Shown here one piece after another: positions 34,745 to 63,886 of a stretch of DNA of 64,000 nt. The first letter of the stretch is position 1, and each line of letters opens with the position of its first letter. The DNA is taken from contig JABYQQ010000006.1 in NCBI GenBank assembly GCA_022605405.1, positions 2,418,001-2,482,000 on the forward strand, read 5' to 3'. The notes below the pieces were generated by a model that did not search any database, was not told the DNA's origin, and saw only the letters and a program-made list of their open reading frames with translations. The DNA comes from Earliella scabrosa (taxonomy: Eukaryota; Basidiomycota; Agaricomycetes; Polyporales; Polyporaceae). The position numbers and the translations under genes were made by a program.

Positions 34745-35290
34745 ATGTCCCTCACCATGCACGCGCCGCGCCGCAAGACTTGCCAGGCCCTCCTTCCCAA
34801 TGGTGTGACACCCTGCAGCGTGAGCTTCCGCGGCCGGGGCCGGTACTTCTTCGCGCACCTCGACGAGTGCACGCAGCTCTCGGGCGTGCACAAGGACGCC
34901 GCCGCACGCGCGGACCGCCGACGGCGCACCGGCGAGCTCTCAGTGCGCCAGGTCAGTGCGCTCGCGGCGGGGGAGAGAGAGATAATCATATTTTACAGTG
35001 GCATGAGGCCGGTACGGCCGAAGTTGCCACTGCTACTAAAACTGCTACCTAATGTACTCAAATATGACGGTGTAATGTACACGTACGAGTCGTGGTGATG
35101 TGGGGATGAGCTATGGATACATTGGGTGGCTCGCGGCGGGCACGAGCGTTGGCGCGGGAGAGGGGCGGCGGTGTTGGCTTACCAGGGCTGCTCGAGGACG
35201 AGGAGCAGACGCGGGCGGCGCTGCTTGCGCGCTTCCTGGCGGAGAGTGAGTGCTTGCCTCTCTTCGTCGGAAGGTGCTCTGGCGTGCGTA
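34745..35290 (+). pseudogene. Broken single-module Cys/His-coil family gene (copy of the 41.3-kb gene)
   Basis: Upstream flank and first ~225 coding bases closely match the gene at 41311, but the third motif cysteine is replaced by Phe (YFFAH). After SALAAG a 157-bp insertion (34972-35128), flanked by 12-base direct repeats gctcgcggcggg, introduces stops. Homology resumes at 35141 (lineage of LLEDEEQTRAALLARF) and is lost after about 35,290, before the membrane-anchor exon. It is a decayed duplicate. Confidence 0.8.
34972..35128. mobile_element. 157-bp insertion with hairpin, flanked by 12-bp direct repeats
   Basis: The insertion is AT-richer than its surroundings and absent from the paralogue at 41.3 kb. 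The repeats at 34960-34971 and 35129-35140 are identical, like a target-site duplication. Inside, 34996-35032 can fold into a hairpin (cagtggca and tgccactg around ggccggtacggcc). No long terminal inverted repeats were seen, so its class is unknown. Confidence 0.65.
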
Positions 35291-35386
35291 GCTTACGGGT
35301 TTGGCGTGTGCCGGGAACTTGCGAACCCCTCGTGTGAAATTTGAAATCGGATATGTGAGGTCGGATATGAACGAAAGAAGCCTGTC

Positions 35387-36397
35387 ATGGAACCACGTGC
35401 AGATGGCACTTGGACTTTGTCCGGCCAGTATCCTTCTCCCTCTCCCCTTCCCTCTCTATCTCTCCTCGTAGTAGCGGTCAACGAGGACAATATGCTTCAA
35501 CAGAGTCTCTTTACAGTGTCTGGCCCTTCTCCGAGGGAGAACGACCCAGTTGTCTCCATCCGGCTCTCAGAGTTACTTACTCAGTATGTGCTCCCCCACA
35601 CCTACCAAGTTCCTACATGTTCTTGAGCTCAATAATCTTTCATTGACTGTAGAGCTAGTATCTCAACCCCAAAAATCTGCTCTACTAGCAGCTGCTAGGA
35701 ATGATTCTTCTACCACTATCCTCAACCACAAACACTTGGATATTGAGGGTGGACGGGTCGGAAGCACTCCGATACAGCACACTAGGCAGGTGAAGGTTGC
35801 GGTGAGTAGCAGAAGTTGAGTCTTCTCCCAGTCATAACTCATGTCCATCCAAGTGTAAACGCTGCCATGATGCCAAACGACCCTGCAAAGGCGGTCGTCC
35901 TTGCAAGAGATGCTTGTACCATGGGGTAGAGGCCGCTTGCGTTGACCACGTCCGCCAGAAACGGTCTCAGAAAGCAAGGGCTCGGAACGCGGGACAAGCC
36001 ATGGACTCCTCTCAATTGAGTCAGCCTGCATCTTCCGAGATAGTGTCTACCGCCCACGGTCTCGGTGGTCCTCAACAGATGGGTACGAGTGAATACCCGG
36101 TGACTGCGATCGGACTGGGTCACGATGGGCCGACTCCGGCTATACAAGGTAATACACATATACTCCCTTCACGCATTGCCGGCTCATATTGACAATATAT
36201 ACCTAGGCCTATCTTCTGGCTACTACAATTACAACATGAACGACATCTTCCTCCCCGCTTATGGCATGGAGTACAGGCTGGACAACCTGAACGCCGGCGC
36301 CTGGAACGAGAACTTGCCAGGCCCCAGCGGGCAGAACTCGAGTGGCAACTTCATGCCTGGGAGCTCCGGCGGAAATTACTATAGCGGCTATCTCTGA
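35387..36397 (+). CDS. Zn2Cys6 (Gal4-type) transcription regulator
   Basis: Clear exons are 35387-35427, a second exon from about 35472 with uncertain end, an exon ending 35801, then 35854-36148 and 36207-36397. The cluster CKRCHDAKRPCKGGRPCKRC plus a sixth cysteine eight residues later fits C-x2-C-x6-C-x5-C-x2-C-x8-C, the fungal binuclear zinc finger that binds DNA in the nucleus. It is split by an intron just before its first cysteine (phase 0). A basic stretch follows (VRQKRSQKARAR), then a Ser/Gln-rich and Asn/Gly/Tyr-rich tail. Unusually, the finger lies in the second half of the protein. The joins between 35517 and 35660 could not be settled because two frames look plausible. Targets are unknown. 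Confidence 0.68.
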
Positions 36398-37239
36398 GTA
36401 CCCTCTATATTCACTCTCCGCGAGAGCTACGTACCACGTCCTCACTAGATATGATCCATGAAATTCTGCTCTCGTGCTCTCGGTCGGTCTAAACATCTCC
36501 ATGTTGCTGTCTTCTGACTCTGGCTGCTCTCTACTTATGTATTCACCTCGCTACTGTCTGTGAAACCAATGTACTCTGTTAATACACCCTCGTCTACAAT
36601 GATTCCTCCGTTCTTGCGCTCAAGGGATTAGTGAGCGTCTACTCCAACGCGACGCGGGTAAGGATCACGAGACCGTGGTTGGCGGATGACGTCACGCGTG
36701 CGGTTTTATTATTTACTCCAAGGGGAGTACATGAGGCGAATACATGACGATCTGTATTCCTCCACGACCAGCGGCGTACACGCTCAGGTGAGCCGCGGGT
36801 CGGTTCCGATATCTGGGAATTCGCGGTGGTCAGATAGTTTCCGACCGGCGCTTCCATACTGGAGCGTTGTGCCCCAGTCATCGAACAGTTATCGGGCAAA
36901 CCGATATTGGAGGGATGTCTAAGCGCCGGCTGCTAAATATCTGCTTGATACCCAGCGCCGCCCCGGCAGATAACTTCCGACCAGATACCCAGGGCGCCCG
37001 GTGCACAGCTGGGCGTGTAAGCCAGCGCGGGCGTCGGTATGTACTAAGTATAAAATATTAGTCGCGGCTCCGGGCTCCGTACCCAACGTCCACGCGCTCG
37101 CATCGGGAAGCGTAACCTGGCAACTCACTCGTGCGTTGAGTGAACTGAGGGATAGCATCTCGAGCAGGGACTGCTGTATACCCTTCCATGCGATACAGGG
37201 TCTAAACACCACGAACGAGGATTCCCCAACCCCCTACAC
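36398..37239. other. Intergenic between the Zn2Cys6 gene and cystathionine gamma-synthase copy 2
   Basis: Contains the MITE-like element listed at 36777-37019; nothing else was recognised. Confidence 0.5.
36777..37019. mobile_element. MITE-like element, copy 1 (~243 bp)
   Basis: It begins TACACGCTCAGGTG and ends CAGCTGGGCGTGTA, so the ends are inverted repeats. Internal parts share cagataacttccgaccagata and its inverse. A second copy of similar length lies at 57235-57475. No coding capacity. A clear target-site duplication was not established. Confidence 0.7.
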
Positions 37240-39383
37240 TCACTCCGCCCTCAATCTCTCCCCCTCCATCTCACCCCGCACGACCTCCTCCGCAGCCTCC
37301 ACCGCCCTCCCCACCCACCTCATCAACGTCTCCCTATCCTCCAGCCCCACACTAATCCTAACAATACCCTCCTCGACGCCCCACCCCGCCGCCCAAGGCA
37401 GCTCCCAATAGTGCGCGAGGATCGTGTACGGGCACGCGAGCGTAAAGTTCGTGCCGAGGCTCGGGCCCTTGGCGCACGGGAGCGCGTCGTAAAACGCGCG
37501 CGATGCCGCCATGGAGACGAACGTGAGCGTGAGCAGCCCGCCGTAGCCCCCGCCGGCGCGCCGGCACCTGTCGTAGTTCTCGGGCGTGATCCATTTGGGG
37601 TAGAATATGTCCTTGATCGCGAGCGGGGGAGTGGCGGGCGCGGTGGACGGGGGCGGGGCGAAGGCGAGGGAGCGCGAGCGGAGGAACTCGCAGACGGCGA
37701 GCGCGTTGGCGTCGATGCGGGCGATGCGCGCGCGGAAGTCGCGAGAGTTGCGCTCCATGTGGATCGCGTCTTCATCAAAGTAGGTGTCTTCGAAGATCGC
37801 GGACAGACGGGCTTTCATGCTGGCATAGTGTCGGCCGTCCGGATTCAACACGAGGCTGCAGACAGCGAGGATTAGCCACACGACGAGATCTTTAGCGTTC
37901 GACGAAGGCAAAGCGGTCCCGAGACGCACCTTCCGCCCATAACGTTCGCCTTTCCGCTGAAGATCTTGCTCAGGCTGGTCACGATGACGTCAACATGCGG
38001 GAGGACGTCGACGTTCGCAAAGTTCCCGATCGTCTCGTCCACGATGATCGGGAAGCCGTATTTGTCCGCGAGCTCTCGCAGTCGAAGAAGGTCAGGAGAG
38101 CGCAACCGCGGGTTCGACGGGAACTCGGTGAAAAGCGCCGAGATGGGCGGGACGGATGGATCTTGTCCAGCACCTCGTTCCAGGACGGACACCAACTCGG
38201 CGAAGTCTTGCTCGTCTCCGCTGCCGTAGAAGTGACAGCCCGGGCCCCACTTCTCCAGAATCTTGACGGTGTCGCAATACGGAAATCTGTGTGCCAGCGC
38301 GTCGGATGGATCAGTACAGCAACATTGACACGGACGAGAACACGTACCCAAAGCATACACTCTTCATTGGCGGGCCGACGCCAAGGATCATCTGATGAGC
38401 GTGCCAGATGGCCGCCATACCACCGGGGAAGAGGAACACATCGCCCTCCTCGACGCGCCGACCGCCTCGTGTGCTCTTTCCTGTAGCACCCTCGGCTCCG
38501 TTTGACACAGAACAGGAAACAGGAGCATCTTGGGAAACCAGCTCCGCTATCCTGCGGCGGATCGTCCGCTTTGCATCCGCGGCTGATTCTAGGAGACCGT
38601 TCTCACCCGGCCGCTCCTCGACGTAATCACAAACAGTATGCGTCGTTGCGGACGATTCTGCAGCAGAATTGCCTTTCTGAGGAACTGCGGGTGCACAAGA
38701 GGGCAAACGACATACTGGAGGGATGTTTGGCGTCCAGGCCGTTCTCATGCGTGCCATGAGGCGAGAAAGAGGAAATGGCGCCGACCTGATATTTGCTCGT
38801 AGAGGTCTCCTCTCCGAGCAGGATCAGGCAGAGGTCTGCGCGGCGGGAGGAGATCCCGAGCCCGGTGTGCATCCAAAACTCCTTCGCGAGCGGTTCCGCG
38901 TCCAGAGGGTAGAAAACGACGTATAGTACCACGGCGGAAGTGGCCCCGTCTTCGGAAGGAGGGCGAATGGTGAAGTCCACGAGACGTACCGAGACCGGGG
39001 ATCCAGCTCGGGTGGAGTGATCGACTAAGAACGCACCGCAGTGCTCTGCAAGCTTGCGAGACGGGCAGAGGAGGGCTCGCTCGTCGCCTACCCCGAACCT
39101 TTGCTCACATATACTAGCAAGCTACATCACGCCGACGATGAGCGTATTTAATGCAGAAATTGGCCTGGACGATGACTAGACACACCTTCCGGACATTCAA
39201 TGGAATGACGAAGCGGGGGTATCCAGAGACCATCGCGTCGATGACCCGCTTCTCACCGGTCATGTAGCCCACGGTGTCCTTCCATGTTGGCAGGGATACG
39301 GAGAGGCAGTGCGGGGTGACTGGAGGCACTGACGAGCCTAACGGACCCTCCTGGCAGTCTTGGACCAGTGTCGTCGTTCCCAT
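37240..39383 (-). CDS. STR2: Cystathionine gamma-synthase (copy 2, possibly frameshifted)
   Basis: Four exons mirror copy 1: 39383-39186, 39121-38348, 38286-37930 and 37855-37240; the first exon has exactly the same length as in copy 1. The PLP core is complete ([56 protein letters not shown]), including the Schiff-base lysine. In exon 2, however, the frame breaks in the variable linker around 38.64-38.73 kb. Removing a 31-nt GT..AG segment restores it and gives 637 residues; otherwise it is a frameshift. Thirty-one nt is very short for an intron, so pseudogene status is open. It diverges from copy 1 throughout, so the duplication is not recent. Confidence 0.75.
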
Positions 39384-41310: not shown

Positions 41311-42022
41311 ATGTCCCCCACCATGCACGCGCCGCGCCGCAAGACCTGCCAGGCCCTCCTCTTGGACGGCGCGACGCCCTGCAGCGCGAGCTTCCGCGGC
41401 TGGGGCCGGTATTGCCTCGCGCACCTCGACGAGTGCGCGCAGCTCTCGGGCGTGCACAAGGACGCCGCCGCACGCGCGGACCGCGCCCGGCGCACCGGCG
41501 AGCTCTCCGAGCGCCAGGTCCGTGCCCTCGCGGCGGGCACGAACGTCGGCGCGGTCGAGAGGGCGGCGGAGAAGGTGCTGGCTTACCAGAGGCTGCTCGA
41601 GGACGAGGAGCGGGCGCGGGCGGCGCTGCTCGCGCGCTTCCCGGCGGAAAGTGAGTGCTCTCTTTCTTTGTCCTGGTCGGGTGCTCTGGTGTGCATGCGG
41701 TGTGACGGTGTTGACGGGACTGGTGTGTGCTGGCACAGGGGACGGGAGGCTCGAGATGCGCATGAGGCTGGTCGAGGAGAGGAAGGCGGGGTGCGCTGCG
41801 CTGCTCGCGCAGCTGCAGCAGCTCAGGGAGGAGGTTGTTGCGGGTGCTCAGCAGCGGCGCGATCGGCATAGGCCTGGAGATTCTCCGACCCAAGGCGACT
41901 CGGAGAGGCAGCCTCTCGTCTCCCGGCCGCGGCCTTCTCGGGCGCAGAGCGTAAGGTGGTGGTTCGTGCTTGTTGTCTTCCTGGTTGTTGTACTGGTGCG
42001 TACCAGTGCCGTTGTTCTGTGA
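41311..42022 (+). CDS. Single-module Cys/His-coil family protein with C-terminal membrane anchor
   Basis: Two exons, 41311-41650 and 41739-42022, joined in phase 1, give 207 residues. The N-terminus has the family motif C-x10-C-x10-C-x2-H (TCQALL...TPC...RYCLAH), which could bind one zinc ion. A charged helical stretch rich in Ala, Arg and Glu follows, ending LLARFPAE where relatives have HxxFF. Exon 2 continues the helix and ends in a hydrophobic segment, WWFVLVVFLVVVLV, just before the C-terminus, so it could be tail-anchored with the motif in the cytosol. No known family was recognised. A broken duplicate lies at 34.7 kb. The start is supported because the homology to that copy includes the ATG and flank. 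Confidence 0.75.
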
Positions 42023-42379
42023 AGGGAGCTGCGTACTGACGAAGTACTCTATCTGATAGCTGATTTCTGTGTCCATATTGGTCCTCATCTTGGACCGTCT
42101 TGATGTTCGCTTGTGACGTGTAAGTCCTATCCCCGCTACTCTAGCGTATTAACCCTCCTCAAAAACCATAGGTCAATACCTCCACATATTCCTCATCCAA
42201 TTTCCTCGGTCCCTTGTCGTATACCATTGGACTCGCTCAACTCGGACTGGTCGTACCTTCAGTCTCCATCACAGCACGCACACCACTCATCCTGTACCAA
42301 CACTGTCATCGTCACCACTACCGCTTTGCTGCTCTCCATACACCGGTTCGCACTCTTCACCTCATGCTGTACCATGTAC

Positions 42380-42795: not shown

Positions 42796-44179
42796 CTATT
42801 TGACCTCCAGTCGAGCAAAATAAACCACTAGTTGAAAGCATCCAACGATCGTCGCGCATCCGACCATCACCATCGACCACTTTGAGAGTTGCAACCACTC
42901 GCACGAGAGGAACGCAAATCCCTGTGGGACATCGGTCAGTCTCATTTCTCAGGTCGTCCAGTTATCGATCCCTGGATCACGTACTAGAAGCGTCACCACA
43001 GCCGCTAGAGCCTCGTAGAAGTGTGCTCTGAAGGACCGCCTCGCTGTATCCAGCTTCGCTTCGAGGTCATGCACGCGACGCTGGTGCTCATGTGCGGCTG
43101 CCAGGAAGGGTTCAAGCGCATGAGCAGATGTTTCTCGCGATCAATCAGCAGGGGATGCCACCGACCCGAACACCGGAACTGCTGCTGATGCTGCTCCTCC
43201 AGTCGCAGGTTGGCGCCGATCGCCGAGGAATATATCCACCACTTGACCATGATGATCGGTCCCGGGACTCCAAGGGTTAGATGCGTCCGTACGGCGTCCC
43301 AGCTCTTCAATGCGGACGACTCGGCTGACCGCAGTCCGATCAAGGACGACCGATGTGCCGCTTTGTGTGAGTGGCAGAATCGCCCGTCTTCAAGGGGATG
43401 TGGGCAGAAGGTGACTTCGCATTGTGTCGAGCCGTGGACGAAGCCAGTGGAAGCACAACCCCTGCCACAGCATAGCGAACGTGATGAGTACTGATGTACA
43501 GCCTTGGCCCTCCTCCGCTCACCTGGATTCCCGTGCATCATCCGAGTCCGAAATCGTGTCTGGGTCCCCTCCGCGCCTACGATCTTCTTGATCTCGCTCG
43601 TCGGCTGAGGCAGCTGGCTCTTCGCCAGGAGTCGGCTCGTCTGGACGCATTTCGAGCGTGCTCTGTCTCTCCCGGAGGTACCGTAGACGCGTCAACGCGA
43701 CACCTCGCTGCTCTATGAAGTCCTCTCGATTTATTAGGGCCACCTCGTCTGGTGGTGGGTCCCGCCCGTCGGCTGCTCGTCCAGAAGTTAACCCCTCCTC
43801 AGTACGAATATATCCACTGAACAAAATGACAGAGCTCACGTGGCCATCGGATGCGGTTTTCAGGAAACTGCCAGCTATACCGGTCCTTGGCCGTCATTGC
43901 GCGATCCAGATACTCAACGTACGTCTCCACCATCTGTATTTCCTTCTCGAGCTGAATACTGGGCCGTGACCGGGAGCGCGTCTCCGAAGGTTTCCACAGT
44001 CGAGACAATGAATTGCCCAAGTTCCCAGCATTCTGGATGACCTCCAGGTATTCGATAAATCCCCGGCCACATGCCTCTTCGTGTGCGGGACAGAGACTCC
44101 ACCGCCAAAGTCCGATCTGAGGGCACCGTCTACCGTCTGTCGGATCTCCGGATAGGCGGGCAGTGCATTGACGCGCCAT
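42796..44179 (-). CDS. Two-module Cys/His-coil family membrane protein
   Basis: Five exons join in phase: 44179-43840, 43775-43523, 43461-43166, 43097-42985 and 42921-42796, giving 375 residues. Module 1 has C-x13-C-x10-C-x2-H (QCTARL...RRC...SLCPAH), then a helical segment with YVEYLDRAM. A linker with GVALTRLRYLRERQ follows. Module 2 has a shortened form (QCEVTFC...RFCHSHKAAHR) and a helical segment ending EEQHQQQF. The last two exons encode a helix and two hydrophobic segments (FYEALAAVVTLLGFAFLSCEW and MVMVGCATIVGCFQLVVYF). Intron phases are 1, 2, 1, 0, identical to its relatives. Its closest relative is the next gene to the right (45.7-47.1 kb). Function unknown; zinc binding is inferred from the residue pattern. 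Confidence 0.75.
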
Positions 44180-44551: not shown

Positions 44552-45190
44552 ATGCTCGATCATCCACTAAGACCTCCTTTGTATTCTCTCATCGCGGATT
44601 GCGGACATCATGATGCGGCGAAGCGCTCCTCTAGGACCTCACCACTCCACATACGCTGGAATGTCCGCGAGGTTCTGTGCCGCGCACGCAGGCGAGTACA
44701 AGATCATGACCGCGGTACACAGAAGGATGTCTCCAAAAGGAAGGAAGCGAGCCGTACTCACCGCAATCGAGAAGGATCGACGGAGCGTGGTTCACGACAC
44801 TATGACCATGCACTGCTTCGGACCTGTATGGGCCGGGGTGAGCACTCATGATCCAGTTCACCCGAGGCCTTTCCGTCTGCTGGGCTCCCTCACCTGGGCC
44901 CACTGGTCGTGCTCTTCATCTCCGTAAGAACATGACACGTCTTGAGCCGCCACGATCGCTGTCATGCTTTCTATGTACCTGTCGCTCTGGCGCTGGCACT
45001 GTTGGGGGTGGTGCTGCAGCTGCAGCACCATTGACGCATAGAACCGTATGTCACAACAACTGTCCAACGTTAACGTTCATCTGGTCGTGTGTTCCTTGCA
45101 CGAATCGACGCGGCTCCAGTGCGCACTGGGGAAGATGTGATTCATTCCCCGTGAACTGACAAGCCAACACTTCACAGGAATCATTGATCA
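44552..45190 (+). pseudogene. Decayed plus-strand Cys/His-coil family gene
   Basis: It retains RFCAAHAGEYK, the C-x2-H-x3-EY part of the family motif, but the first two cysteines are lost, apparently through a small deletion. Frames shift before the hydrophobic 3' part (near 44900-45020). It matches the remnant at 47.4-48.1 kb in order and orientation. It probably encodes nothing now. Confidence 0.5.
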
Positions 45191-45657: not shown

Positions 45658-47081
45658 CTAGTTCACCTCCAGTCGTGCATAATCAAGTACTACTCGAAAG
45701 CACCCAATGATGATGATGCACCCGCCCATCATCGTCAACCACCTTGGGACTCGCACCCACTCGCACAAGAGGAGCACAATTGCCTGTGGTATATCGGTCA
45801 GTCTCGTGCTACTTGTCCAATGGAGATTCACGATCCCCGGATAACGTACCATTAGCGTCACCACAACTGGTACAACTGCGTAGAATTGTGTGCTGAGTCG
45901 CTGAACTGCCCAAGCTTGCATGATCTTGATATCATCTACGCAGCGTTTGTACTCATCTTCGGCTGCCAGGATGCGTTCTCGTGAGCAGACGTGAGTGCGA
46001 AGTTGTAGCGTGAGGTGTGACCTACCCATGCACTTAAACTGCTGCTGATGCTCCTCCTCTAGCCGTAGCTTGGTGCCGAGCGCCGAGGAATACATCCAAC
46101 ACTTGACCATGATGATGGGCTCTGGGGCTTTCAGCATCATCAAGGTCCACACATCACCCCAGCTCTTCAAAGCGGACATATCGGCTGACTGAAGTTCGAT
46201 CAAGGACGTCCGGTGTGCCGCCTTGTGGGAATGGCAGAATCGCTCATCTTCAAGCGGAAGTGGGCAGCAGGTGACCTCGCAGTATGTTGAGCCGTGGATA
46301 TGGTGAGTCAAAGCACAGCCTCTGCAGTATAGCGTGTACAGTGAGTACTGATGTACAAACTTGACCCTCATTTGCCTCGGCATACCTGGACTCCATCATA
46401 CCCCGTACATCAAGGTCCGAAGCCGTGTCTGGGTTCCTTCTGAGGCTATGATGTTCTTTATATTGCTCGTGAGCAGACGCAGACGGGATGGTGTGAGTAT
46501 GCTTACCAGTGGAAGCTGCCTCCTGGACAGGGATTCGCTCGTTTGCAGGAATCGGCGCCTCGGCGGGCGTTCGCTCCACAACTGTCGGAGTCTCGAATGT
46601 TGTCCGTCCCTCCCGAAGGAACCGTAGGAAATTCAAAGCATTATCCCTCCGTTGTCTGATGCGGGAGAGAAGTGACGGGTTCCTCCCGTCCGCTATTTGT
46701 TCATGCCCTAAGTACACCCTGCTCAGTGCGATCATACATAGTAACTGAACATTGACAGCGCTCACCCTCTGCGAAAAATTGCCAGCTCAGCTGCTCTCGG
46801 GCTCTCACGGCGCGATCCAAACACTCGACGTACGCCTCCATCATCTCAATATCTCTCTCGAGCAGGTCAGTGCTGTTCCCAAATGGTTCCCTTCGCCACA
46901 GCTCAGTAATAAAGTTAGCTATGAGTTTAGCCTCCTGCAAGGCCCGTATGTGTTCGGTAATCAGATGCGAGCATGCGTCCCTGTGGGTGGCGCAGAAGAA
47001 GGTTCCTTCAGGTCTGACTCGAGCGCAACGTCTCTCGTCTCCCGGGCTTCCAGAGAGGCGAGCAGTGCATCGCCGCGCCAT
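45658..47081 (-). CDS. Two-module Cys/His-coil family membrane protein
   Basis: Five exons join in phase: 47081-46766, 46707-46386, 46321-46026, 45977-45850 and 45783-45658, giving 395 residues. Module 1 is RCTARL...RRC...FFCATH (C-x13-C-x10-C-x2-H). The linker holds ADGRNPSLLSRIRQRRDNALNFLRFL. Module 2 has YCEVTCC...RFCHSHKAAHR. The C-terminal part has two hydrophobic segments (FYAVVPVVVTLMAIVLLLCEW and MMGGCIIIIGCFRVVLDY). Exons 3 and 5 have exactly the same lengths (296 and 126 nt) as in the paralogue at 42.8-44.2 kb, and intron phases are identical. The linker differs most between the two copies. Membrane location and zinc binding are inferred from sequence only. Confidence 0.77.
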
Positions 47082-47388
47082 TGTAAGAAGTGACGCGGGT
47101 GAAAGAAGCGAGGAGAGGAAGGGATACGGTGGGATAACCCCCACAAGGTACATCGTCGATTATATACCACCATCCGGATTCACAACACGCTCGCTGTGTA
47201 GGAGAAACCTTGCACACCAGAGACATGCACCCTACGTATGTACGTGTCATCTCCGTCTCATTGCATGCCTATCCCATCTCAAGGGCCCTGCAGCACCATG
47301 AACGACTTGAAGTAGGCTCGCACCCTCCGCATTCTTCGATATATGCTGCGGTAGTCACCCGCAGAGAACCATTTCGCGTTTTTCAGTT

Positions 47389-48060
47389 ATGCAACGTTCG
47401 CCAATAGCCCCGCAGAGGAACTCATGGGAGCACGGTGCGGTGTGCACCACGCAACATCCCCTGGCGGCGCGACCGCCATCATATATGTGCTCAACCACCA
47501 GTCCCTCCACTACCGTCCACGGGCCCGTTCCGAGTCTGATTTCAAGGAGTCAGACGCCGCATTGCCTCAAGAGTGCGCATTGCAGACATGCAAAGCCCTC
47601 CTCCAGGACCTCACGACTCCGACCTGTAAAGCTTACACATCGCGCAGGTCGGCGAGGATCTGCGCCGCGCAAGCAAGCGGGTACCAAGCCCGCGCGCCCT
47701 ACCACGGCACATCAAGAATCGTTCAACACGAGAGCTTCGCGAAGCCTGGCTCAAGACACTGCGACCATGGACTGTCCCGGACGGCGACTAGAGAGGGCGA
47801 TAAACCGATTGGGGTGGGCAGTCATCATCCAATTCACCTTGAACTTCCTTTCGGGATGGTGTTAACTGGCCCTCCTGGCTTCAGATTGGTCATGCTCTCC
47901 ATCATTGCACTCATACGCCTCGTGCCACCATCGTCACCGATCGGTTACTCTCTACGGACCTGTCGCTCTGCGCGGCAGCAGCTGCAGCACCATGTACGCA
48001 GTCTCAGAGCCGCACGTATTGGCAACACCTGATCAGCGTTCATCTGGTTGTGTATCCCTT
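47389..48060 (+). pseudogene. Plus-strand Cys/His-coil family remnant, open frame but altered motif
   Basis: A frame open at 47424-48032 contains TCKALLQDLTTPTC...RICAAQ, i.e. the family motif with the final His replaced by Gln. The helical stretch usually following is missing, and a hydrophobic part (FRLVMLSIIALIRLV) comes later. It is homologous in position to 44.55-45.19 kb. It could still be expressed, but motif loss and missing helix suggest decay. Confidence 0.4.
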
Positions 48061-48497: not shown

Positions 48498-49793
48498 CTA
48501 CTTGCGCCTAGGTCCTTCGTACATCTGCACGCCTTGCACCGAATGCCACCCCAAGGCTGCCGCCGCTCCGAACAACAGGCTCCGCCCCCACGAGTACCCA
48601 AAGTACGCGCTCGCGCCGGACACCACCACTCCCTGCGTACACCGGATGACGCTCGTTACAGGTCGTGCACGGGACTGAAGGGCTCACCAGGACGAACGGG
48701 AGTTTGCCAGTGCTAGAACGTGCGGCTCGCTCCTTCGCGATGACTTGGTCGACAATTCCAGCCATTTGCTTGCGCATATCTGCCAGCTCGTCCAGGTCGA
48801 ATGCGGGGTGCGCTGTGGATTCGCGGCACAGTAGTCAACCAAAATGACAATCCAGCACAAGTCTGGAGCGACATACCTGTCTTTCCAAACTGCTGCTGGA
48901 GCCTATCTTCTAGCTCAAAGATGATGTCCACTATCGCGTCGTACTTGTTGACGGCCGCAATCGCGTCCTTTCGCGAGAGTTGGCCGCCCTCGTAGCGTTC
49001 CATTTTCGCCATCATATCCGCGCACGCGCTCGCAGCTTCCACCGACAGTGCCTCAACCAGTTTCACCAACGCGCGACGCTCCTCTTCGTGATCGAGACAG
49101 AACCTCTGCCCTCGGCGGGTGGGGACCAGGCACGGCCGGTCTTGCCCTGCAGGCCGGGCTTGGCAGGGGGACAGGGCATTCGCGCCTCCTGCATCCCTGG
49201 GTCTGCGTACGGCGAGGTTACGGAGCTTGAGATACGGAGCATGCGAGAGAGTGACCGCACCGTTTGGTCTCCTCCTTTCCGCTCCGCTCTTGTTCCGGCT
49301 GGGTCGCCTGTCTTCCTCGCTCTTCGGCAAGCTTCAGGAGATGGTTCTTCCTCCGTTCCAGACTGCCCGTGAATCGCAGGGCCTGGGTCTTCTTGTCCTT
49401 CAGGATCATCAGGCACATCTGCGTGGGGCAGTGCTCTGCAAGCGATGAGGACACGCGAGATTGGCCTCGTACAAAAGGGAGCATACCGTTAACCACGAAG
49501 GTCCTCTCAAGCTCTTCCATCAACTGTATCGCCTTCTCCAGGCATGCGACATACGTTCCGACGATTTTTGCCTTCGCGCTGAGCTCCTCGGCGGCGTGGC
49601 ATGACTCCACGTCCATGGTCTGGATGATAGCATCGAGTGCGCGTGCATCCTTTGTGGCCTTCTCATATGCGTCCAATTTGTTAAGATACTCGAGATGGTG
49701 TTCTTCGCACCAGCCGTCACCGTCTAAGCATCCGGTACTGCAGCGCCGGAGTTTGCCGTCGTCGCCAGGTACCTGAGCTTGACACCGAGCCAT
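48498..49793 (-). CDS. Two-module Cys/His-coil family membrane protein
   Basis: Five exons join in phase: 49793-49487, 49435-49261, 49202-48877, 48812-48688 and 48632-48498, giving 355 residues. Module 1 is RCQAQV...RRC...GWCEEHHLEYLNKLDAYEK, then a helix ending ELERTF. The linker has SLERRKNHLLKLAEERG. Module 2 is PCQARPAGQDRPC...RFCLDHEEERR with a helix ending EDRLQQQF. The last exon gives a Gly/Ala-rich hydrophobic stretch with YFGYSWGRSLLFGAAAALGW, a block shared with the genes at 50.5 and 52.1 kb. Intron phases are 1, 2, 1, 0. Start at MARCQAQ is chosen because the motif begins there in relatives; an upstream in-frame Met at 49925 is possible. Confidence 0.77.
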
Positions 49794-50523: not shown

Positions 50524-51871
50524 TCACGCCCGTTCACCTCGAGCTGAACGCCACCCAAACATCGCCAACGCTCCGAACAGCACACTTCGGCCCCAAGGAA
50601 TACCAAAGTACGCGCCCACGCCCGAAGCGGCCAGTCCCTGCAAAGACATCGTTCACAGAATGTTCCACTGCAAAATTTTGAGACTAGACGGCACGCACCA
50701 GAGCAAACTCGAGCACAGAATCTCCCACTTTCTCTTCGGCCCTCACTTGATCCAGCGATTTCATGACATTTGTTTGCATCCTCTTCAGCTCCACCATCCG
50801 TACCGCATGTCCTTCAGCTGCGGATTGTGAGCCCACTGACATCGCCCTCAGGATGCAAGAGGTGCACACTTACGAGCGCAGCTGAAGCGCCGCTCGTGCG
50901 TTTCTTCCAGCTGGATGAGCAGGGCCACAGCGGCAGCGTACTCGTTGAGGAGCGCAAGGGCAGCATCGGCGGACAGGCCGCCCGATTTGTACCGTTCCAC
51001 GGCGCTGGCCACAGCGCCCCCCGCTCTCGCGACGGCCTGTTCTGTGGAACCGATCTCCGCCTTCAACGCGCGATGTTCGTTGCCGTGCACGTAGCAGAAT
51101 CGCTGTCCTTTGGGGACAGCAACGACACAAATCGCTTGAGCGCCATGCGCGTGCCGAGCCTGGCAATGGTACGTCGCCACTGTGGCCTTCGCAGCTTCTG
51201 CGCGGGCGTAGTGATCTCTGAGTCTATGCGCAGCGACGTTGGTTGACGTGCTACTATTCATGGACGGACGGTCCTTACCTATCTTTCTGCGCTTTCTGGA
51301 TCCTCTCGAGCTCCTGTTCTTTCTTCAGAGCTGCTTGAACTTGAAGAAGTTTGCGCTGTTCTTCAACGAGGTGCGTCTTCCTGTCGTTCAGTCGGCGCAG
51401 AAACGCACGTGCGTCCTCCCTCTTTGACCTCAAGCGATCCAGGTACTTTTGATGAGGCTCGTCCGCTGCCGACCCGACACAGGTCATGACAGAGTGGACG
51501 TATCAAGACGCGCCAGGTGCCATTCGCAACGAGCCTGGAACAGGGGACGTACGTTGCGCAAAGAAGATCGCATGGTGCTCTTCCCTTCGTTGTATCGCCG
51601 TCTCCAGGCGCGCGACATACGTTTCCACAACTCTCGCATTTCCGCTCAGGTCCTCGACGACACGGCACGCGTCGACGTCCATCGTCTGCAACTCGGTGAA
51701 CACGATATCGAGCGCTTCGGCTTCGTTGGTGACTTTCTTGTATGCGTCCGTCGCCTGGACATACTCCTCCCAGTGGTTGTGGCAGTAGGTGTGCGCTTGA
51801 TGCGGAAACCTGCGCTTGCAACGCTTGCGTCGTCCGTCGTCGCTGGTTATTCGAGCGTGACACTGAGGCAT
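50524..51871 (-). CDS. Two-module Cys/His-coil family membrane protein
   Basis: Five exons join in phase: 51871-51553, 51465-51279, 51217-50874, 50817-50699 and 50637-50524, giving 360 residues. Module 1 is QCHARI...KRC...TYCHNHWEEYVQATDAYKK, helix ending RREEHHAIFF. The linker is a strong coiled coil (DRLRSKREDARAFLRRLNDRKTHLVEEQ, then QVQAALKKEQELERIQKAQ). Module 2 is HCQARHAHGAQAIC...RFCYVHGNEHR, helix ending EETHERRF. The last exon has YFGIPWGRSVLFGALAMFGW. Intron phases are 1, 2, 1, 0. It is one of the clearest members because both cysteine/histidine sets and both helices are complete. Function unknown. Confidence 0.78.
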
Positions 51872-52146: not shown

Positions 52147-53036
52147 TCATTTCCCCAGTCTCCTACATGCGCGCAACCCGAACATGGCCAACGCTCCCAG
52201 TAGCAGACTACGACCCCAAGGCATCCCGCAGCATGCGCCCATACCGGACACCGAAACTCCCTGTAAGGCGCAGTTATTTGCTGATTCCTTTGCTAGATAA
52301 GTTCAATCAACTTACAAGAAGGACCTCGGTGATCAAATCGAGGCCTTTTCCTCGGCCACGACGCCATCTAGGGCTTTCGCCACTTGCGCTCGCAGGCCCT
52401 TCAAATTGGCCATGTGGGAAGCGCGTTCTTCATCTAGTACAGCGTGATGAGTACACGCAGCGGAGAGTTATATAGATATATATGACGCTCAGCAGTATGC
52501 TCACCTTCAGACCACCCGAATCGTCGCTGATTCGTCTCTTCCAGCTGTATCACCGTATCCACCCTTGCTGCATAGCTCTCCAGAGTCGCAATCGCTTCCG
52601 TACCCAGGATAGCGCCCCACGTGTGGCGGGTCAGAGCCATCAACATCCCCGGGCACGCGTTCTTCATTGCCTGTTCCGCCTCCCTGGTCTTTGCCAGCAA
52701 CACGCGACGCTCGTTGACGTGAACGGGACAGAAGCGCTGGGCTTTGGGGACTGCGACGAGGCACGGTTCGGGCTCGTCATGCGTCGGACGGACCTGACAA
52801 CGGTGCATGATCTTCTCGGCTTCCGAAACGTTGTTAAGCCTAGATGAGTAGCATACATGAGGTCACCGACCGGCCTACGTGCGAGAGACCACAACCGGAC
52901 TGTACCTTGTCTTCTCTTCCTCTGCCCGATGAGTCGGCTGGCTCCTCCGCTCTTCGCACCAGCGGTCTGAGGATCCGGTACTGCTGCGCCGGAGTTTGCC
53001 GTCGTCGCCGAGTATCTGAGCTTGACACGGCCCCAT
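52147..53036 (-). pseudogene. Shortened and frameshifted Cys/His-coil family gene
   Basis: Exons 53036-52906, 52839-52505, 52433-52316 and 52260-52147. The first exon keeps CQAQILGDDGKLRR but has lost the second cysteine and the C-x2-H, and it jumps from there directly to the end of the linker, as if module 1's helix and an intron were deleted. Module 2 is complete (RCQVRP...PC...RFCPVHVNERR, ending EETNQRRF). Exon 52433-52316 is one base shorter than its counterpart and hits a stop; skipping one base restores the frame to the conserved WGRSLLLGALAMFG end. The last exon is exactly as long (114 nt) as in the neighbour. Confidence 0.65.
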
Positions 53037-53667
53037 GTTGGTGCAGAGAGTGAACTTGAGAACGTGCAAGAGCAGACGAGGAGGTAGCTGAGAGAAACGG
53101 CGAGAAGGGGTAGGAGAGATTCGAGGACGAGGTCCTCATCTTTTTATCGGCCGCAGCTTACCGTCCTAATAGAGTTCGCGGTGACAGTCAATCGTCTAGT
53201 GAGCAAATGAGGTAATGGGGCTTCCAAAACGAGCGTAGTGCAACGGCATATGTCTGCAATTGCGCACCTTCGACCAACGGAGTCGAGAGTATGGGCTCTC
53301 AATATTCGCTGACGCACCCCTTATGATGGACCAAGTAGCACATGAAAGCGCAGATGTCATAGTACGCATTTGTTGCACACACGGCGTCCGTCAGCACTGC
53401 ACCGGCCCGGAAGGGACCGATTCCAACTTCGCAAGGTCAATCCAATTGAGTGGAGAGGGTAACGGTATCGTACATTGCCTTCTTTCTATCAGAGGAAGGA
53501 GATCGCTCAGTGTCCAGAATATTTTGTACGGATTGTATGCGCTCACCTCAACTTCGACGTACAACCACCGCCAGACTTCGCATCCAAGAAATGCCCCCCA
53601 ACTTCACGTGCTTACTCTAATTTCCGCATGATGTTGCGGTATGCCAAGCTCTCTCTGTATGTGAATG
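53037..53667. other. Intergenic, no gene seen
   Basis: No membrane-anchor exon for the gene to the right could be found here, although relatives have one at this place. Confidence 0.45.
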
Positions 53668-54908
53668 TCACTGCGCTTCGGACCAGGCAAGGACCTTCGA
53701 ATAATCGAGGAATCTCCCCATGTGCGCGCGCATGCCCTTCAGCTCCTCGACGCACGACGCATACCCTTTGTCTAGAAAACACGATGCGTCAGCTTACGCA
53801 TCATCGAGAATGAAGGCGACGGACGCTCGCCTGAACACCCGAACCGACATCGGTGCTTCTCTTCCAGCTCGAGCAAGACGTCCAGACTGGCGACATACTG
53901 CACCAAACTCGCGCCGACCGCGTCCTTGGCCGGCTCGTCCCCTGACTTGTACCTCCTTGCAACAGCGGCCAGGGCGGACCAGGACTCGGCGGATGTCGCC
54001 TGCGCTGTGTCGATCCGCGCCATCAACGCGTCGTGCTCCCAGCTGTGAACGTCACAGAAGGGATGGGCCTCCGCGGGTGCGAGAACTGGAGCAAGACACC
54101 GTTCCGAGTCCTCATCAAGTTCGTCGTAGGAAAGCAGGGCTTCACAGTAGCGACTCGGAGCGACGATGGCTTCCTCAGCATACGGAGCGAAGCTGGCAAT
54201 CTCAGCTTGAAGACGGATGATCTCCATGTCTCTGGATCCGAGTGAGATCAACTTCGATCGCGAGGAAACCGGATAGCCCGGATAGAACGACCGTACCTCG
54301 ATTCCTGCTCTTCGAGCTCCCACTGACAAAGTTCCTCCAAATCTTGATCAAGAAGTTCGTCATAATCCCTCGTGGCGCGCCCGCCGCACATCACTCCCAC
54401 CATCCGCACCATCCTCGCATCGAGCCTGCTCAGGAACGCCACAGCGCTCTCCTTCCTCCCTTTCAGCTTGTTCACGTAAGCATGATGGCCAGGATCTCCT
54501 GTCGCACGCAATCATTCAATCAACGAGGGATATGCATCACGAGATCCGAACGCACGTACTCGTAGCGAAGAACATCTGGTTGTGTTCCTCTCTCCCTCGT
54601 ATCGCCTCGTCCAGACGCACCACGTACTGTTCCACCAGCCTCGCAGCAGCCCCGATCTTCTTGACATCGTAGCACGCCTCCACGGCCATGTACTCCACTT
54701 CGTCGAAAATGAGGGCGAGCACCTCGGCTTGCATGGACACCCTCTTGTACGCACTGTACCTCTGCGTGTACTCCTCGCGATGCTGCGGGCACCAGTGTTG
54801 CCGCTTGGCCGCGAGGATCCCATCACACTGCACGAGTTCCCCGTTCTCGTCGGTCGTGCGAGCTTCACATCGATAGGACGTCAGTATGGAGGCGGGTAGA
54901 AGCGACAT
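53668..54908 (-). CDS. Two-module Cys/His-coil family protein lacking a membrane anchor
   Basis: Four exons join in phase: 54908-54560, 54498-54297, 54231-53825 and 53771-53668, giving 353 residues. Module 1 is RCEARTTDENGELVQC...HWCPQHREEYTQRYSAYKR, helix ending REEHNQMFF. The linker helix reads KLKGRKESAVAFLSRLDARM. Module 2 is YCEALL...ERC...PFCDVHSWEHD, helix ending EEKHRCRF. The last exon has VEELKGMRAHMGRFLDY, matching the pre-anchor helix of relatives, and then stops. The usual phase-0 intron and hydrophobic exon are absent. Either the anchor was lost or the last exon lies further left and was missed. Confidence 0.7.
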
Positions 54909-55049: not shown

Positions 55050-55110
55050 ATTGTAAGCACCTTGGTACACATTCTGCCAGACTCTGGCAGACTCTGGCAG
55101 ACTGTCTACC
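55050..55110. repeat. Left member of an inverted repeat pair with ctctggcaga tandem units
   Basis: agcaccttggtacacattctgccagact plus two further ctctggcaga units. The reverse complement of 57.095-57.15 kb reads agcaccatgttacattgtctgccagact with the same tandem units, so the two sites form an inverted pair about 2 kb apart. Confidence 0.6.
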
Positions 55111-56750: not shown

Positions 56751-57094
56751 GCAGGCTTCGACATGGAGCTCAAAATGAACTTGCATACTACGTAAGGTCC
56801 CATGGTGCGGTTCCCTTTCAACTCCCATGGACAACTTCTTATCTCCTCAGCCTTAGTTGCCCTTCGACGTCGGCGCACAAAGCCAGGACCGTTGGGCAGC
56901 CCCCTTCGACTTCTCTGTTAGTTAATTCGTGAATCCGGTCGCCGTAGGTGAATATTGACCGGAGATGTAAGTAGAGTCAAAGTGCACAGTCGGTAAGTAA
57001 CTTCAATGCAACATGATATTAGCGTGCCTACCAACGCGCCATCAATGCCCGATCAATAACTGGCGCCAATCAAGGATAGCCGACTGGTCACGTG

Positions 57095-57150
57095 GTAGTC
57101 TGGCAGAGTCTGGCAGAGTCTGGCAGACAATGTAACATGGTGCTGATGGT
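57095..57150. repeat. Right member of the inverted repeat pair
   Basis: Three tandem copies of tctggcagag followed by acaatgtaacatggtgct, inverted relative to 55.05-55.11 kb. Confidence 0.6.
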
Positions 57151-57234
57151 CTCGCAGGGTGGATGTGATTGATTTTACGTCGGCAAGTGGTCTGACGGAC
57201 GTACGGGGAATTGTAATTGCCGTTTTCGTCCACG

Positions 57235-57475
57235 TACACGCCCAGGTGTGCACCGGGCGCCCTAGATATTTGGTCGGAAGTTATCCGTCCGGGCGGCGCT
57301 GGGTATCGGACGGTATCTGGCGGCCGGCGCCTAGTCATCTAGCCCATATCGGTTTGTCCAACATCTGTTCGATGTCTCGCCCAAGACCCTCCAGTATTGA
57401 AGCGCCGGTCAGAACCCTCCTACAGATAACTTCCGACCAGATATCCCATGCTCCCGGCGCTCACCTGAGCGTGTA
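57235..57475. mobile_element. MITE-like element, copy 2 (~241 bp)
   Basis: Begins TACACGCCCAGGTG and ends CACCTGAGCGTGTA, so the ends are inverted repeats. Inside it shares ggtcggaagttatc and gataacttccgacc with the element at 36777-37019. It lies between the repeat-rich zone and the family gene at 57.6 kb. Confidence 0.72.
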
Positions 57476-57643
57476 GGGGCGGCATGAAGCGAATGGTCCG
57501 TACACCTGAGATATCGTACAAAAACTGTGGTACAGTGCGGCCGAGTGAGGGGAAATGCAGCTGGAAACCGCTACTAGAGGAGCGTGCCTCCCGCGGTCGA
57601 GAAATAATGCGCGAGCCTCCTGAGTCTACAACAGGCATTGACC

Positions 57644-59102
57644 TCATCCCTGCCGCTTCGTTCGCTGGCTCGCACGATATGTTACATACCCAAGTGCGCC
57701 GAGTACTGCTGCAGTGCCCTGAGAATACCATTATTAGGGTCTCTCGATTTCGTGGTGCACAACATCAACTCACCAGGATCAGTCCAAATGTACCCATCCG
57801 ATCGCTTGGCGCAGCCGTCTGAGTCCTGGTACCCGAGGGGCCTGCTTTTCCGCGGCTTGTCCACGGTTCTGCATCGTCTCTCTCCCTGGCGCGCGCGAGT
57901 TCTTCCTGTTGGCTGCGAAGCGCCCTCCGCCTCGCCTCCGCCTCGTCGCGTTGCGTCTGTTCAGCTTCCTCGCGCCGCCTTTGCTCGGCTTCCTCGCGTC
58001 GCCTCTGCGTAGCCTCGTCGCGCTCACGAGCAAGACGCTCCCTCTTTTCCGCTGCTTTGCGAGTGGTGAGTACATCGGAGTGTCGACGCTGGAGCTCCCC
58101 CAGACTTCGGTCGTCGAAGACGCCTTCATCTATGCGCAACATCAGTAGAGAAACCGGGGAGTAAGTGGCCCTTACTCACAATTCCTGGGAAACAGCTTGC
58201 GAACTTTCGTCACAACTTCGATCCGCTCATCTATCCATACGATGTACTGGCGCACTGCTTGCATGTCTTGCTCTAGCAACGGGTGAGGATGATTGTGGCG
58301 TAGCAACCACAGCAGTTTGTTCTTGCAACGGTCGACGAGCATTTGCAGACCTTCAAGCTTCTCCGCTGCGCGCTCTTCTCTGGTGACGAGCTCCACATAA
58401 TCCCGGGCATGGCTAGAACACAGGCCAGAGACGTCTTCATCTCTGTCTTCGTCGTCGTAAACGATGATGTCGCAGCGGCGAAGAGGGCCATTCGTCGAAT
58501 CGCGTAGCGCCCTACATTGCGTGCCGGCACGTCGAGTCGGCCGGGAACTGAAGGTTGCTAGATAGCTAGGCGGAGGCGTCGGGGGGCACAGTGGCTCTGT
58601 CATGTTACCGCAGCTGCTGTACTTGGCCCGAGTGGCGTGCAGGTCGTCGAGACGCGCCCGCGCCTCCCTGCGTTCTTCTTTGCGATGCGCGAGCCACTTG
58701 TCGTGTCCGTAGTCGCCTACAACACAGATCCATTCACATCGTTGCCACGTAGCAAGGTCAGATCCACTCACTTTCTCCGAAGAAAAGTGTGTGATGCTCC
58801 GTGCGCCCCTCGATCTCTTTATCCAGCGCATCGATCTGCGCCTGAGTCTCCCCTACCATCTTGTCGAGCTGCGCAATGAGTATCGCGTTGGAGTCCTCGG
58901 CTTGGGCCGCAAGATGGTCGGCCTGCGTCGAGCTTCGCTTGTACCTGCCGGTCTGCTGCGCGTACTGTCTCCGGTGCTTCAGGCAGAGTGTCGGATTGTT
59001 GGTGTATGCGCGTTCGGAGCAGCGACGGCGCCCACCATGGAGTCCGAACTCGCACTGGGTGTACGTCTGGGTCGGCTCGTCGGAGTCTGACTCGTTGATC
59101 AT
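57644..59102 (-). CDS. Two-module Cys/His-coil family protein with long coiled coil and membrane anchor
   Basis: Four exons join in phase: 59102-58772, 58716-58180, 58129-57774 and 57718-57644, giving 432 residues. Module 1 is QCEFGLHGGRRRC...TLCLKHRRQYAQQTGRYKR, helix ending RTEHHTLFF. Linker and module 2 are in one exon, unlike relatives: QCRALRDSTNGPLRRC...GLCSSHARDYVEL, helix ending VTKVRKLF. A highly charged coiled coil follows with repeated QRRREEAEQ units. The end is a hydrophobic segment, GTFGLILGTAAVLGALGYV, and a basic tail. It is the longest member. An upstream in-frame Met at 59183 could add 27 residues. Confidence 0.76.
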
Positions 59103-61449: not shown

Positions 61450-62400
61450 ATGTCATTTCTGACCCCTCAAGGTTCCCCTTCGTCCTCCGAGCACCATGAT
61501 CGCATAGCACGAACATGCGGGGCGTTGCTCGTCGACGAGACAACCCCTTGCAATGCAATCCTACACAACGAATCTGCCCGGTTCTGCCATAACCATGGAA
61601 GAGAGTATCGGGAGCTCACCGCGGCATACAAGCAGCTGTCAAGGGATGCAGAACTTTTGGGTGACCAAGCACGGCTGTCCTCAACGGAGATTCGCGCAAT
61701 GCACGATATTCCGAGCATCGCTGCGGCAATCAGCCTCGCCGAGAGATGGCGGGACGCTCTTGCAAAGGAGATACGAGGGCGCGAGACGCATCACAGACGG
61801 TTCTTTCGTACACGTACGTTCGCGCCAGTCGAATAATCCACAAACTGGAACATTGACGAGAGGCTGAGGGGAGCAGCAAACGTGGGCCACGAGGTTTGGC
61901 TCGCAACCCTGAGAAGGAGGCACGGAAAGTCGGAGGCGCTCCTCCTTGAGCTGACGGATCGTAAAGACGCATGCAGAAGAAGGCAGGAGGCGCAACGTCG
62001 CGCTGCTGCAATGGTACGCCAGAGGCAACCGTTCCGTGGACATCCTGAGTGGATCCCTCTCGATCGTCTCCACGATCCACCGGAGGTGCGGATGATCCAA
62101 TCCACATTTACATGGCTTGCTCAATTTCGACGCAGGGACGGGTCTGGCGAGAAGACGATCCTCGCGGGATGGAGGCGAGAGGTCCTGATATGCTAGCAGT
62201 GTTTTTTGTGAGTAGTTTTGATTGAAGATGACCGCGTTGCTGCTGATCGTGTTCTCGCATTGCAGGCCGTGCTTTTCTTGTGGTTCATTGTCTCGGTAGT
62301 GTCCCGGGGCGAACCGATGGATGTGGCTAGGCAGAGACGGCAATTATTGCAACATGCTGGAGGACGTGTTGGTGCCAGAAACGCCGAGTTCATTGGATGA
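61450..62400 (+). CDS. Single-module Cys/His-coil family protein with membrane anchor
   Basis: Four exons join in phase: 61450-61813, 61877-62085, 62136-62207 and 62266-62400, giving 259 residues. The motif is TCGALLVDETTPC...RFCHNHGREYRELTAAYKQ (C-x10-C-x11-C-x2-H), helix ending RGRETHHRRFF. A second helical stretch (EVWLATLRRRHGKSEALLLEL) follows, then MLAVFFAVLFLWFIVSVV, split by a phase-0 intron as in other members, and a basic tail. Without the 50-nt intron 62086-62135 the frame would stop at 62196, before the anchor; the intron has a proper donor, branch-like ctcaat and CGCAG acceptor. Its closest relative is the gene at 62.7 kb. Confidence 0.75.
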
Positions 62401-62671
62401 TCAATCGCGTCTCCGGGACCTGCGATGTGTATAGTAGTGGGGATCCTATTTATGGGCATGTATGATCGAGCTTCTTGCGAGTATGTCGGCTCCCGTTAGG
62501 CCTGGATTCTCCGCTCTCCACTAGGACGACAGCCCAGTGAGCAAGACAGAAGCGTCGATGTCACCGTCCAGTTCTATAAACCCCACCGGCTTCGGCTACT
62601 CGTCCCCATGGGACGCCTCGCCCCCTCTCCTTGAACTCCTCGCCCTCGTCCATTGCCCGTGAGCAGGAGCC

Positions 62672-63886
62672 ATGTCCCTTCCCTCGCCCCCGTCCTCCCC
62701 AATCAGCACGACCCAGAAGCTCTGCGAGGCGCTGCTCGTCGACGAGGAGACCCGCTGTCCCACCCGCATTCCGCTCCGGGTTGCGGGGAGGTACTGCAGC
62801 ACGCACGGGCGGGAGTACAAGGAGCTCACCAGGGCGTACAAGGAGGTGTCCGAGCGCGTCGTCGCCCTCAAGAAGCGTGCGTGCCTCTCCAGGAAGGACG
62901 TCCGCGCGATTCAAGACGTCGTCGGGATCGAGAGCGCCCTGGCGGATGTCGCGACCTGGCGTGACGCGATCGCGGAGGAGATCGCGGGGAGGATGGTGCA
63001 GCATCGCCGCTTCTTCTTGGAGAGTAAGTCGTTTCTTTTGCTGTTCGGGAAGCTGTAGTTGAGGGGCGGAGGGTGAGCAGAAGACGAGGGCCACGAGCGG
63101 TGGCTTGCAAGTCTGGCTCAGAACCAAGCGAGGGCCGAGCAACTGATGAAGGATCTGCACCTCCGGAAGACCGCGATCGCGCGCGAGGAAGATCGACGTA
63201 GCGTCATCGCCGCATACCGGCTTGAACGCGAAGCATTGCACGCCGCAGACGAACGACGAAGACTTGCGAATGCGCACTACGCGGGGTGTGAGTCAACGAC
63301 TGCGACCACGATCCTCACCAACGCTCGCATGCCCCATGGATCGGTCCCCTCTCTGTCTGAAGCGTGGCGCGTCGCCTATAGCACGCGGACGCTCCCAACG
63401 AACGCACGATACGCAGCCTATGCCGAGCCAGCTGAGCGGGATGGCGCCCGGGCAACGCAGCCAGGGCGCTCGATGCCGGCGCGCGGTGGTTCACCCTTCA
63501 CGACGCTCCAAAGCACGACTATCGTTCCTACTTCGGCATCCATACCTGCATCCGGTAGGTTTCGAGCACAAGAACATATTGAAACCACGGGGAGGGCTGC
63601 GAGCGTCACTGCTTTTGGGGCATATGTGAACGCGCCTCGCTCTCGTGGAGCCTTCGACGGCCAGCAACAGTCGTTCGCGGCGGAGTCTGGCGGCACGCCA
63701 GAGTGTGGACCGAATCTGTACGAAGTGTTGGTGGTAAGCGCTGCGGCTTTGTACGGGAGATGCTCCTCAGTCGCTTACCGCTTCGTGTATGCCTAGGTAT
63801 TCGCGCTTTTGGTACTCGCAGTGCAGTGGGTGACTGGCAAACTAGGTGAGCGTGCATGCTTTCAGGTCGGAGACACCCGTCGTTGA
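62672..63886 (+). CDS. Single-module Cys/His-coil family protein with membrane anchor
   Basis: Three exons join in phase: 62672-63023, 63081-63733 and 63797-63886, giving 364 residues. The motif is LCEALLVDEETRC...RYCSTHGREYKELTRAYKE (C-x10-C-x12-C-x2-H), helix ending MVQHRRFF. Exon 2 begins with a helical stretch (HERWLASLAQNQARAEQLMKDL), then a long Ser/Thr/Ala-rich region that may be disordered. A hydrophobic segment split by a phase-0 intron ends the protein (YEVLVVFALLVLAVQWVTG), followed by a short tail. The long open exon 2 could hide an additional intron. Tandem to its paralogue at 61.5 kb in the same orientation. Confidence 0.75.

Follow-up and report, generated by a model that had tools for sequence, protein, structure and literature searches.

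A block of related genes on contig C6 of the fungus Earliella scabrosa (Polyporaceae; genome of 51.7 Mb in 48 contigs) raises the question of what kind of protein a fungus multiplies so insistently at one place. The window analysed here is the whole stretch C6:2,418,001-2,482,000, 64,000 nucleotides long. A preliminary description of its sequence had distinguished a cluster of genes sharing a Cys/His motif followed by helices, most of them with a hydrophobic C-terminal end. The family is real and apparently undescribed; its fold class is ordinary, and what is unusual is a single-locus expansion with exchange of modules. The preferred reading, to which we give about one chance in two, is that these genes encode tail-anchored adaptors of internal membranes, built up at one locus under birth-and-death evolution.

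The reality of the family relies on three kinds of control. The expression C-x8-16-C-x8-18-[FYWLH]-C-x2-H matches the window 19 times, at 16 distinct sites all located between 41.3 and 62.8 kb; 30 second-order Markov resamplings average 1.4 matches and never exceed 5. A profile built solely from the 16 window modules recovers, at E<1e-3, 14 of the 1,935 open reading frames (ORFs) lying beyond the window, and none of the 561 ORFs upstream of 34 kb. After iteration the profile detects 33 modules at E<1e-5 among 2,982 ORFs, and nothing at E<0.01 in the same ORFs reversed or shuffled.

Nine complete spliced models were obtained between 41.3 and 63.9 kb, six of them with two modules (Table 1); six two-module genes had also been given in the preliminary description. 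The models were built by hand, with splice sites chosen by eye and partly by analogy between copies, so that the agreement of introns among copies is partly due to construction. A phase-1 intron occurs a few residues past the closing F of the module in all nine first and all six second modules, five of the six two-module genes have a phase-2 intron ahead of the second module (none is placed there in G59), and a phase-0 intron precedes the hydrophobic last exon in 7/9 models. Independent support for the splices of G51 from exon 3 onward comes from the GenBank model P0001 (C8Q76DRAFT_424208), which matches every residue of G51 from the start of exon 3 to the C-terminus and covers introns 3 and 4. 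This model starts within intron 2 of G51 and therefore omits the first module. Weak spots are the off-consensus donors of G61 (GTCCTG), G54 (GTCCGT) and G44 (GTCGGT), the displaced first donor of G44 and the uncertain last splice of G61. As to the approximately five broken copies announced, those at 34.8 and 52.8 kb are clear, whereas the pieces at 44.6 and 47.5 kb are weak and were judged by eye. The copy at 34.8 kb has 84% and 82% DNA identity with G41 in two pieces; the second modules of G44 and G47 are 70% identical, with a dN/dS of 0.31.

Table 1. Members and remnants of the family in the window (window coordinates)
Feature	Position	Strand	Description
Broken G41-type copy	34745..35290	+	Third Cys replaced (F-x2-H), ligand set C-C-F-H, insertion within module exon
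G41	41311..42022	+	Exons 41311-41650 and 41739-42022; one module, coil, E-R-Q-P-L-V motif, predicted terminal hydrophobic helix
G44	42796..44179	-	Two modules, five exons, two terminal hydrophobic stretches
Decayed module-like piece (weak)	44571..44930	+	ORF, profile iE 0.078, judged by eye
G47	45658..47081	-	Two modules, five exons, two terminal hydrophobic stretches; G44 paralogue
Decayed module-like piece (weak)	47355..48032	+	ORF by eye; no significant profile match
G49	48498..49793	-	Two modules, five exons, Gly-rich hydrophobic end
G51	50524..51871	-	Two modules, five exons, Gly-rich weakly hydrophobic end
Broken two-module copy	52160..53040	-	First module lost; second module and G49/G51-like tail kept
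G54	53668..54908	-	Two modules, four exons, no hydrophobic tail found
G59	57644..59102	-	Two modules, four exons, predicted terminal hydrophobic helix; N-terminal half common to chimera M65
G61	61450..62400	+	One module, weak hydrophobic stretch close to end
G62	62672..63886	+	One module, coil, long linker, predicted hydrophobic helix; homologues P0015 (Lentinus tigrinus) and P0014 (Ganoderma sinense)

The cluster had been thought to end at 63.9 kb, but it continues on contig C6 to about position 2,574,611. According to five family probes of the whole genome, the array spans C6:2,452,745-2,574,611 (122 kb); with only the best candidates scored, nothing below E 0.05 appears elsewhere in the 51.7 Mb. 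The window holds 17 of the 33 modules that reach E<1e-5 in the 184 kb examined, and the other 16 lie past it; with the six second modules subtracted, these make 27 copies, broken ones included. Segments in the far part of the array are duplicated at ∼78-94% DNA identity, and a gap at ∼66-116 kb holds other genes. The array may be subtelomeric, as it ends ∼80 kb short of the contig end, but no telomere repeat is present in the last 1.8 kb of the contig. Just beyond the window, M65 (L033; window coordinates 65402-66605; C6:2,483,402-2,484,605) is a chimeric gene of the family. At the protein level its head is 70% identical to G59 and its tail 48% to G62, each being the best match among the sequences compared; therefore, heads and tails have been exchanged. 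By eye, an apparent relic of the second module of G59 is visible at the joint. Another peculiarity is the single open frame of 643 amino acids at L040:7559-9487 (+), which starts with a family module and differs from the multi-exon members.

Within the module, the putative metal ligands are the fixed points. Over the 33 array modules the His is found in 33/33 and the three Cys in 28/28, 32/33 and 31/32; an F column after the ligands is kept in 27/28, and conservation in all remaining columns is at most 73%. Both ligand substitutions sit in broken copies, at 34.8 and 146.1 kb. Five alignment rows are gapped at the first ligand, with a Cys nearby in sequence in four of them. Ten paralogue pairs, with dS from 0.18 to 1.33, have dN/dS ratios of 0.16-0.59; these pairs are under protein-coding constraint and give no sign of positive selection. 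Thus, the divergence claimed in the preliminary description is real, but its being driven by positive selection finds no support. Variation outside the sequenced strain was approached with 21 environmental or unassigned proteins. Nine show 87-98% identity to their counterparts (at least 89% in eight) and are taken to be the same genes from sources like E. scabrosa, and ten (49-69% identical) are taken as originating from other species; not counted are P0037, whose 89% identity extends over only 28 residues, and P0036, which has no match. Hypervariable alleles are not apparent among the nine, a sample biased to similar sequences.

Protein searches yield named homologues in 10 species, namely Lentinus brumalis, L. 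tigrinus, Cerioporus squamosus, Daedaleopsis nitida, Fomes fomentarius, Ganoderma adspersum, G. leucocontextum, G. sinense, Dichomitus squalens and Epithele typhae, and environmental contigs besides. All are labelled hypothetical or uncharacterised. With taxonomy looked up for one species per genus, the genera belong to the Polyporaceae, except Epithele typhae (Epitheliaceae), and all to the order Polyporales. No named homologue falls outside this order, although with 8,000 candidates scored per search absence there is not proven. Viruses and prokaryotes gave no relative in two scans with the G41-type alignment, which reach close relatives only.

The G41 type is present in nine of the 10 named species, G. 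sinense having yielded another type, and L. tigrinus holds both a G41-type (P0027) and a G62-like protein (P0015). A midpoint-rooted tree of 41 module rows supports the G41 type as a clade (97/97) and groups G62 with P0015 (94/79), then with G61 (81/85). P0014 of G. sinense, which shares 41% identity with G62 over 97% of the query, forms with two environmental proteins a group of its own (93/94) whose placement is not settled. The G41-type P0013 and the P0014-like P0020 are both listed with five contigs, the longest of 17,529 bases, which suggests, without being proof, that both types sit side by side in a genome like that of Ganoderma. One clade (100/98) unites the second module of the broken 52.8-kb copy with those of G44, G47, G49, G51 and G54, and the second module of G59 is placed elsewhere on a very long branch. 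A single origin of all second modules was for that reason dropped; since the second module of G59 falls elsewhere, two-module genes may have arisen twice, or the placement of G59 may be a long-branch artefact.

The fold was approached through the L. tigrinus homologue P0015, modelled with AlphaFold2 from a 32-row alignment. Block-mean pLDDT values are 90-98 over residues 11-190. The model predicts helices at 41-68, 81-112 and 118-186, followed by a low-confidence linker and a helix at 257-274 of 275 residues. The predicted architecture is a zinc motif that caps three helices, modelled with confidence, then a disordered stretch and, at the end, a hydrophobic helix. C40 and H43 lie at the start of helix 41-68, and single bridge residues precede that helix. 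In the treble-clef fold, two ligands come from a knuckle and two from a helix start, with a hairpin in between. DUF2116, annotated as ‘probable treble clef’, matches weakly one of 32 members (E 0.011). Comparison of the model with PDB structures by VIA-align returns common helical bundles. Against BFVD, the model matches an uncharacterised Klosneuvirus KNV1 protein (A0A1V0SKC9; E 7.5e-4, probability 1.00) with a TM of 0.40 and an rmsd of 26 Å.

No relative was found in libraries of described families. In Pfam, overlapping sets of 10, 16 and 32 members gave nothing above curated cut-off (best E 0.11, 0.0013 and 0.0032, respectively; the 32-member scan gives the best 25 of 46 weak families), and in NCBIfam seven window ORFs gave nothing above curated cut-off (best E 0.0079). 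Searched by sequence, the PDB holds no relative: the best match (E 0.0051), a phage ejection protein over the helical stretch, is taken as chance, and a second profile finds nothing under E 0.16. Likewise, no paper on the family was found by title or abstract among open-licence PubMed Central papers. The earlier proposal of an undescribed, tandem and diverging family is supported. The preliminary description had likened the pattern to the DUF5763 kind of zinc motif (PF19067), to which a short C...C...C-x2-H motif is ascribed. This kinship was rejected: the best E is 0.55 in 1/16 members, short of the cut-off of 26.3 bits, and with 10 window ORFs DUF5763 does not appear even when E values as high as 1 are admitted. 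In the genome it has four weak matches, none over cut-off and none in the array, and no mention of it was found in open-licence PubMed Central literature. Moreover, its model of 39 positions does not cover the helical bundle and anchor of the present family.

A hydrophobic end had been ascribed to most genes. It is clear (17-residue hydropathy of at least 1.6) in six of the nine models, but weaker in G51 (1.52) and G61 (1.41) and absent from G54, where a stretch of 1.59 lies inside the module. Tail-anchored proteins have one hydrophobic helix, near the C-terminus, and no second one. Hydropathy predicts a clear terminal helix in G41, G62, G59, G49, M65, P0014 and P0015, and two stretches in G44 and G47. 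Ahead of the predicted anchor, the G41 type carries the motif E-x-x-P-L-[LV], in which E, P and L are invariant in 15/15 aligned proteins; the surrounding linker is far more variable, with mostly Arg-rich sequence before the helix. The count omits P0007 and fragments; P0007 and the fragment P0036, both outside the 15-row alignment, possess the motif as well. Acidic-dileucine cargo signals of adaptor protein (AP) complexes have the form [DE]xxxL[LI] and stand in the cytosolic part of the cargo. This strict form occurs in 13 of the 15 proteins, G41 and P0006 ending in V; by its sequence the motif resembles an acidic-dileucine signal of the AP-3 type. Immediately ahead of the anchor, the remaining window genes showed no motif of this kind, and the proposed destination, vacuole or endosome, is therefore limited to the G41 type. 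The closest known system is that of tail-anchored SNAREs routed by AP-3 (yeast Vam3 and Vti1); one study reports that in yeast the dileucine cargo Vam3 recruits AP-3 (PMC8591511). In SNAREs, the SNARE motif stands next to the anchor. The only match of this kind is a weak one to the V-SNARE N-terminus (1/16, E 0.25), in a set where most of the 16 rows stop before the anchor, and the linker preceding the anchor is of low confidence in the P0015 model.

Collectively, these features make it tempting to propose the following picture of tail-anchored adaptors. A metal-binding motif (C, C, C-x2-H) is predicted to cap a three-helix bundle with a long last helix, followed by a disordered linker and, in most members, a terminal hydrophobic helix. 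This C-terminal helix would be inserted post-translationally, and for that reason the zinc-capped bundle would face the cytosol and may bind a partner there. The G41 type would be routed to endosome or vacuole through its acidic-dileucine-like motif. From a few types common to other Polyporales (G41 and G62-like), this species would have assembled its array by duplicating genes in tandem, combining two modules in a single gene and swapping heads and tails among neighbouring genes, while some copies decayed. The bundle sequences do diverge around a preserved metal site, which is expected if the copies bind different cytosolic partners.

The same data can be read as an expansion devoid of any common new role, in which copies of a vacuolar or endosomal accessory gene arise and die neutrally or under the effect of dosage. 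Several copies are broken, other species yielded few types only, and dN/dS is <1 yet not very low, all of which fits. However, ligands and exon structure are intact in nearly all array copies, and the copies are old by their dS values, so that selection was probably needed to keep them open; this explanation is regarded as rather unlikely. A recognition or defence role, suggested in the preliminary description, is a conjecture resting on the pattern of the locus. In this scheme, the array would be an intracellular locus for non-self recognition (allorecognition, or sensing of mycoviruses or rivals), with anchored bundles as variable receptors and HET genes as executioners. The single-locus tandem array, the birth and death of copies, the head/tail exchange and HET genes on one side of the array and inside its gap go in this direction. 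So does a precedent in Neurospora, where clusters bring together HET genes and lineage-specific genes that have no known domain or only few (PMC10684091). The likeness extends to lineage restriction, clustering, lack of known domains and HET genes nearby; the Neurospora clusters differ in comprising many genes near telomeres, as against one homologous family at one locus here. The HET neighbour noted earlier is genuine (window 16143-17750, +, E 5e-28), and a second HET ORF lies in the array gap (L036:3831-4931, +; C6:2516011; E 2.1e-14). Nevertheless, their proximity is not significant and was discarded as evidence: with 136 HET matches genome-wide, ∼0.5 are expected in the 184 kb, and the chance of two or more is ∼0.09 when clustering of HET genes is ignored. 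At allorecognition (het) loci, alleles differ strongly and strains with unlike alleles reject one another. Constraint in the ten paralogue pairs and the high identity of the nine environmental copies also weigh against variable receptors, and no NLR or known death domain besides HET was found in 65 ORFs scanned, of 116 ORFs of at least 170 amino acids. The word zinc is absent from the main text of a review on regulated cell death in fungi (PMC12881547). Altogether, a defence locus of this kind appears unlikely. Slightly more doubtful is its bolder version, a Polyporales-specific intracellular recognition in which zinc-capped anchored receptors multiply, pair and swap heads onto shared tails, giving changing vacuolar or endosomal sensors for non-self partners, viruses or rival molecules.

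Two further explanations were considered. Membrane-tethered regulators, whose zinc-motif head would bind nucleic acid or protein once released from the membrane, are evoked by the C-x2-H motif and by the basic stretch, APRRK or APRKK, that precedes the first Cys in the G41 type. Yet no DNA-binding zinc family is matched at E<0.001 in the three Pfam scans, the largest of them giving the best 25 of 46 families, and in the P0015 model the zinc motif is continuous with the helical bundle. Such regulators are improbable. Remains of a transposable element are evoked by weak Pfam hints, all far above E 0.001: PNMA (1/10, E 0.11) and the CxC6 cluster of KDZ transposases (PF18721), whose Cys-rich stretch aligns to the zinc motif. 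CxC6 concerns 3/32 members at E of at least 0.043, P0015 reaching 14.5 bits against a cut-off of 27.5. No transposase domain was found in the 65 of 116 ORFs scanned, and the copies, found at one locus only, are multi-exon genes of shared structure; a transposon origin is thus disfavoured and very improbable. Tail-anchored adaptors under birth-and-death evolution continue to be preferred.

Other genes surround the family. Besides its HET ORF, the array gap contains an HMG-box ORF (L034:7339-8799, -, E 9.4e-12). Two copies of a segment with 77.5% DNA identity (window 34065-34551 and 37270-37758) adjoin G41-type copies, the second lying within an ORF that matches a Cys/Met-metabolism PLP enzyme. 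Upstream of the array, the ORF at window 8899-10104 (+) matches the perilipin family (E 8.6e-10; its 38.7 bits exceed the cut-off of 33). The ORF at window 35806-36192 (+) has a Cys-rich run that by eye is Zn2Cys6-like.

In this fungus, a coherent family with a well-predicted fold, absent from the libraries searched and found only in one wood-decay order, has expanded at a single locus. The sorting-signal-like motif of the widespread G41 type makes its cellular site testable. Should the array vary among strains, it would be a basidiomycete candidate for non-self recognition; should it be constant, it would illustrate in clean form how an adaptor family evolves by birth and death.

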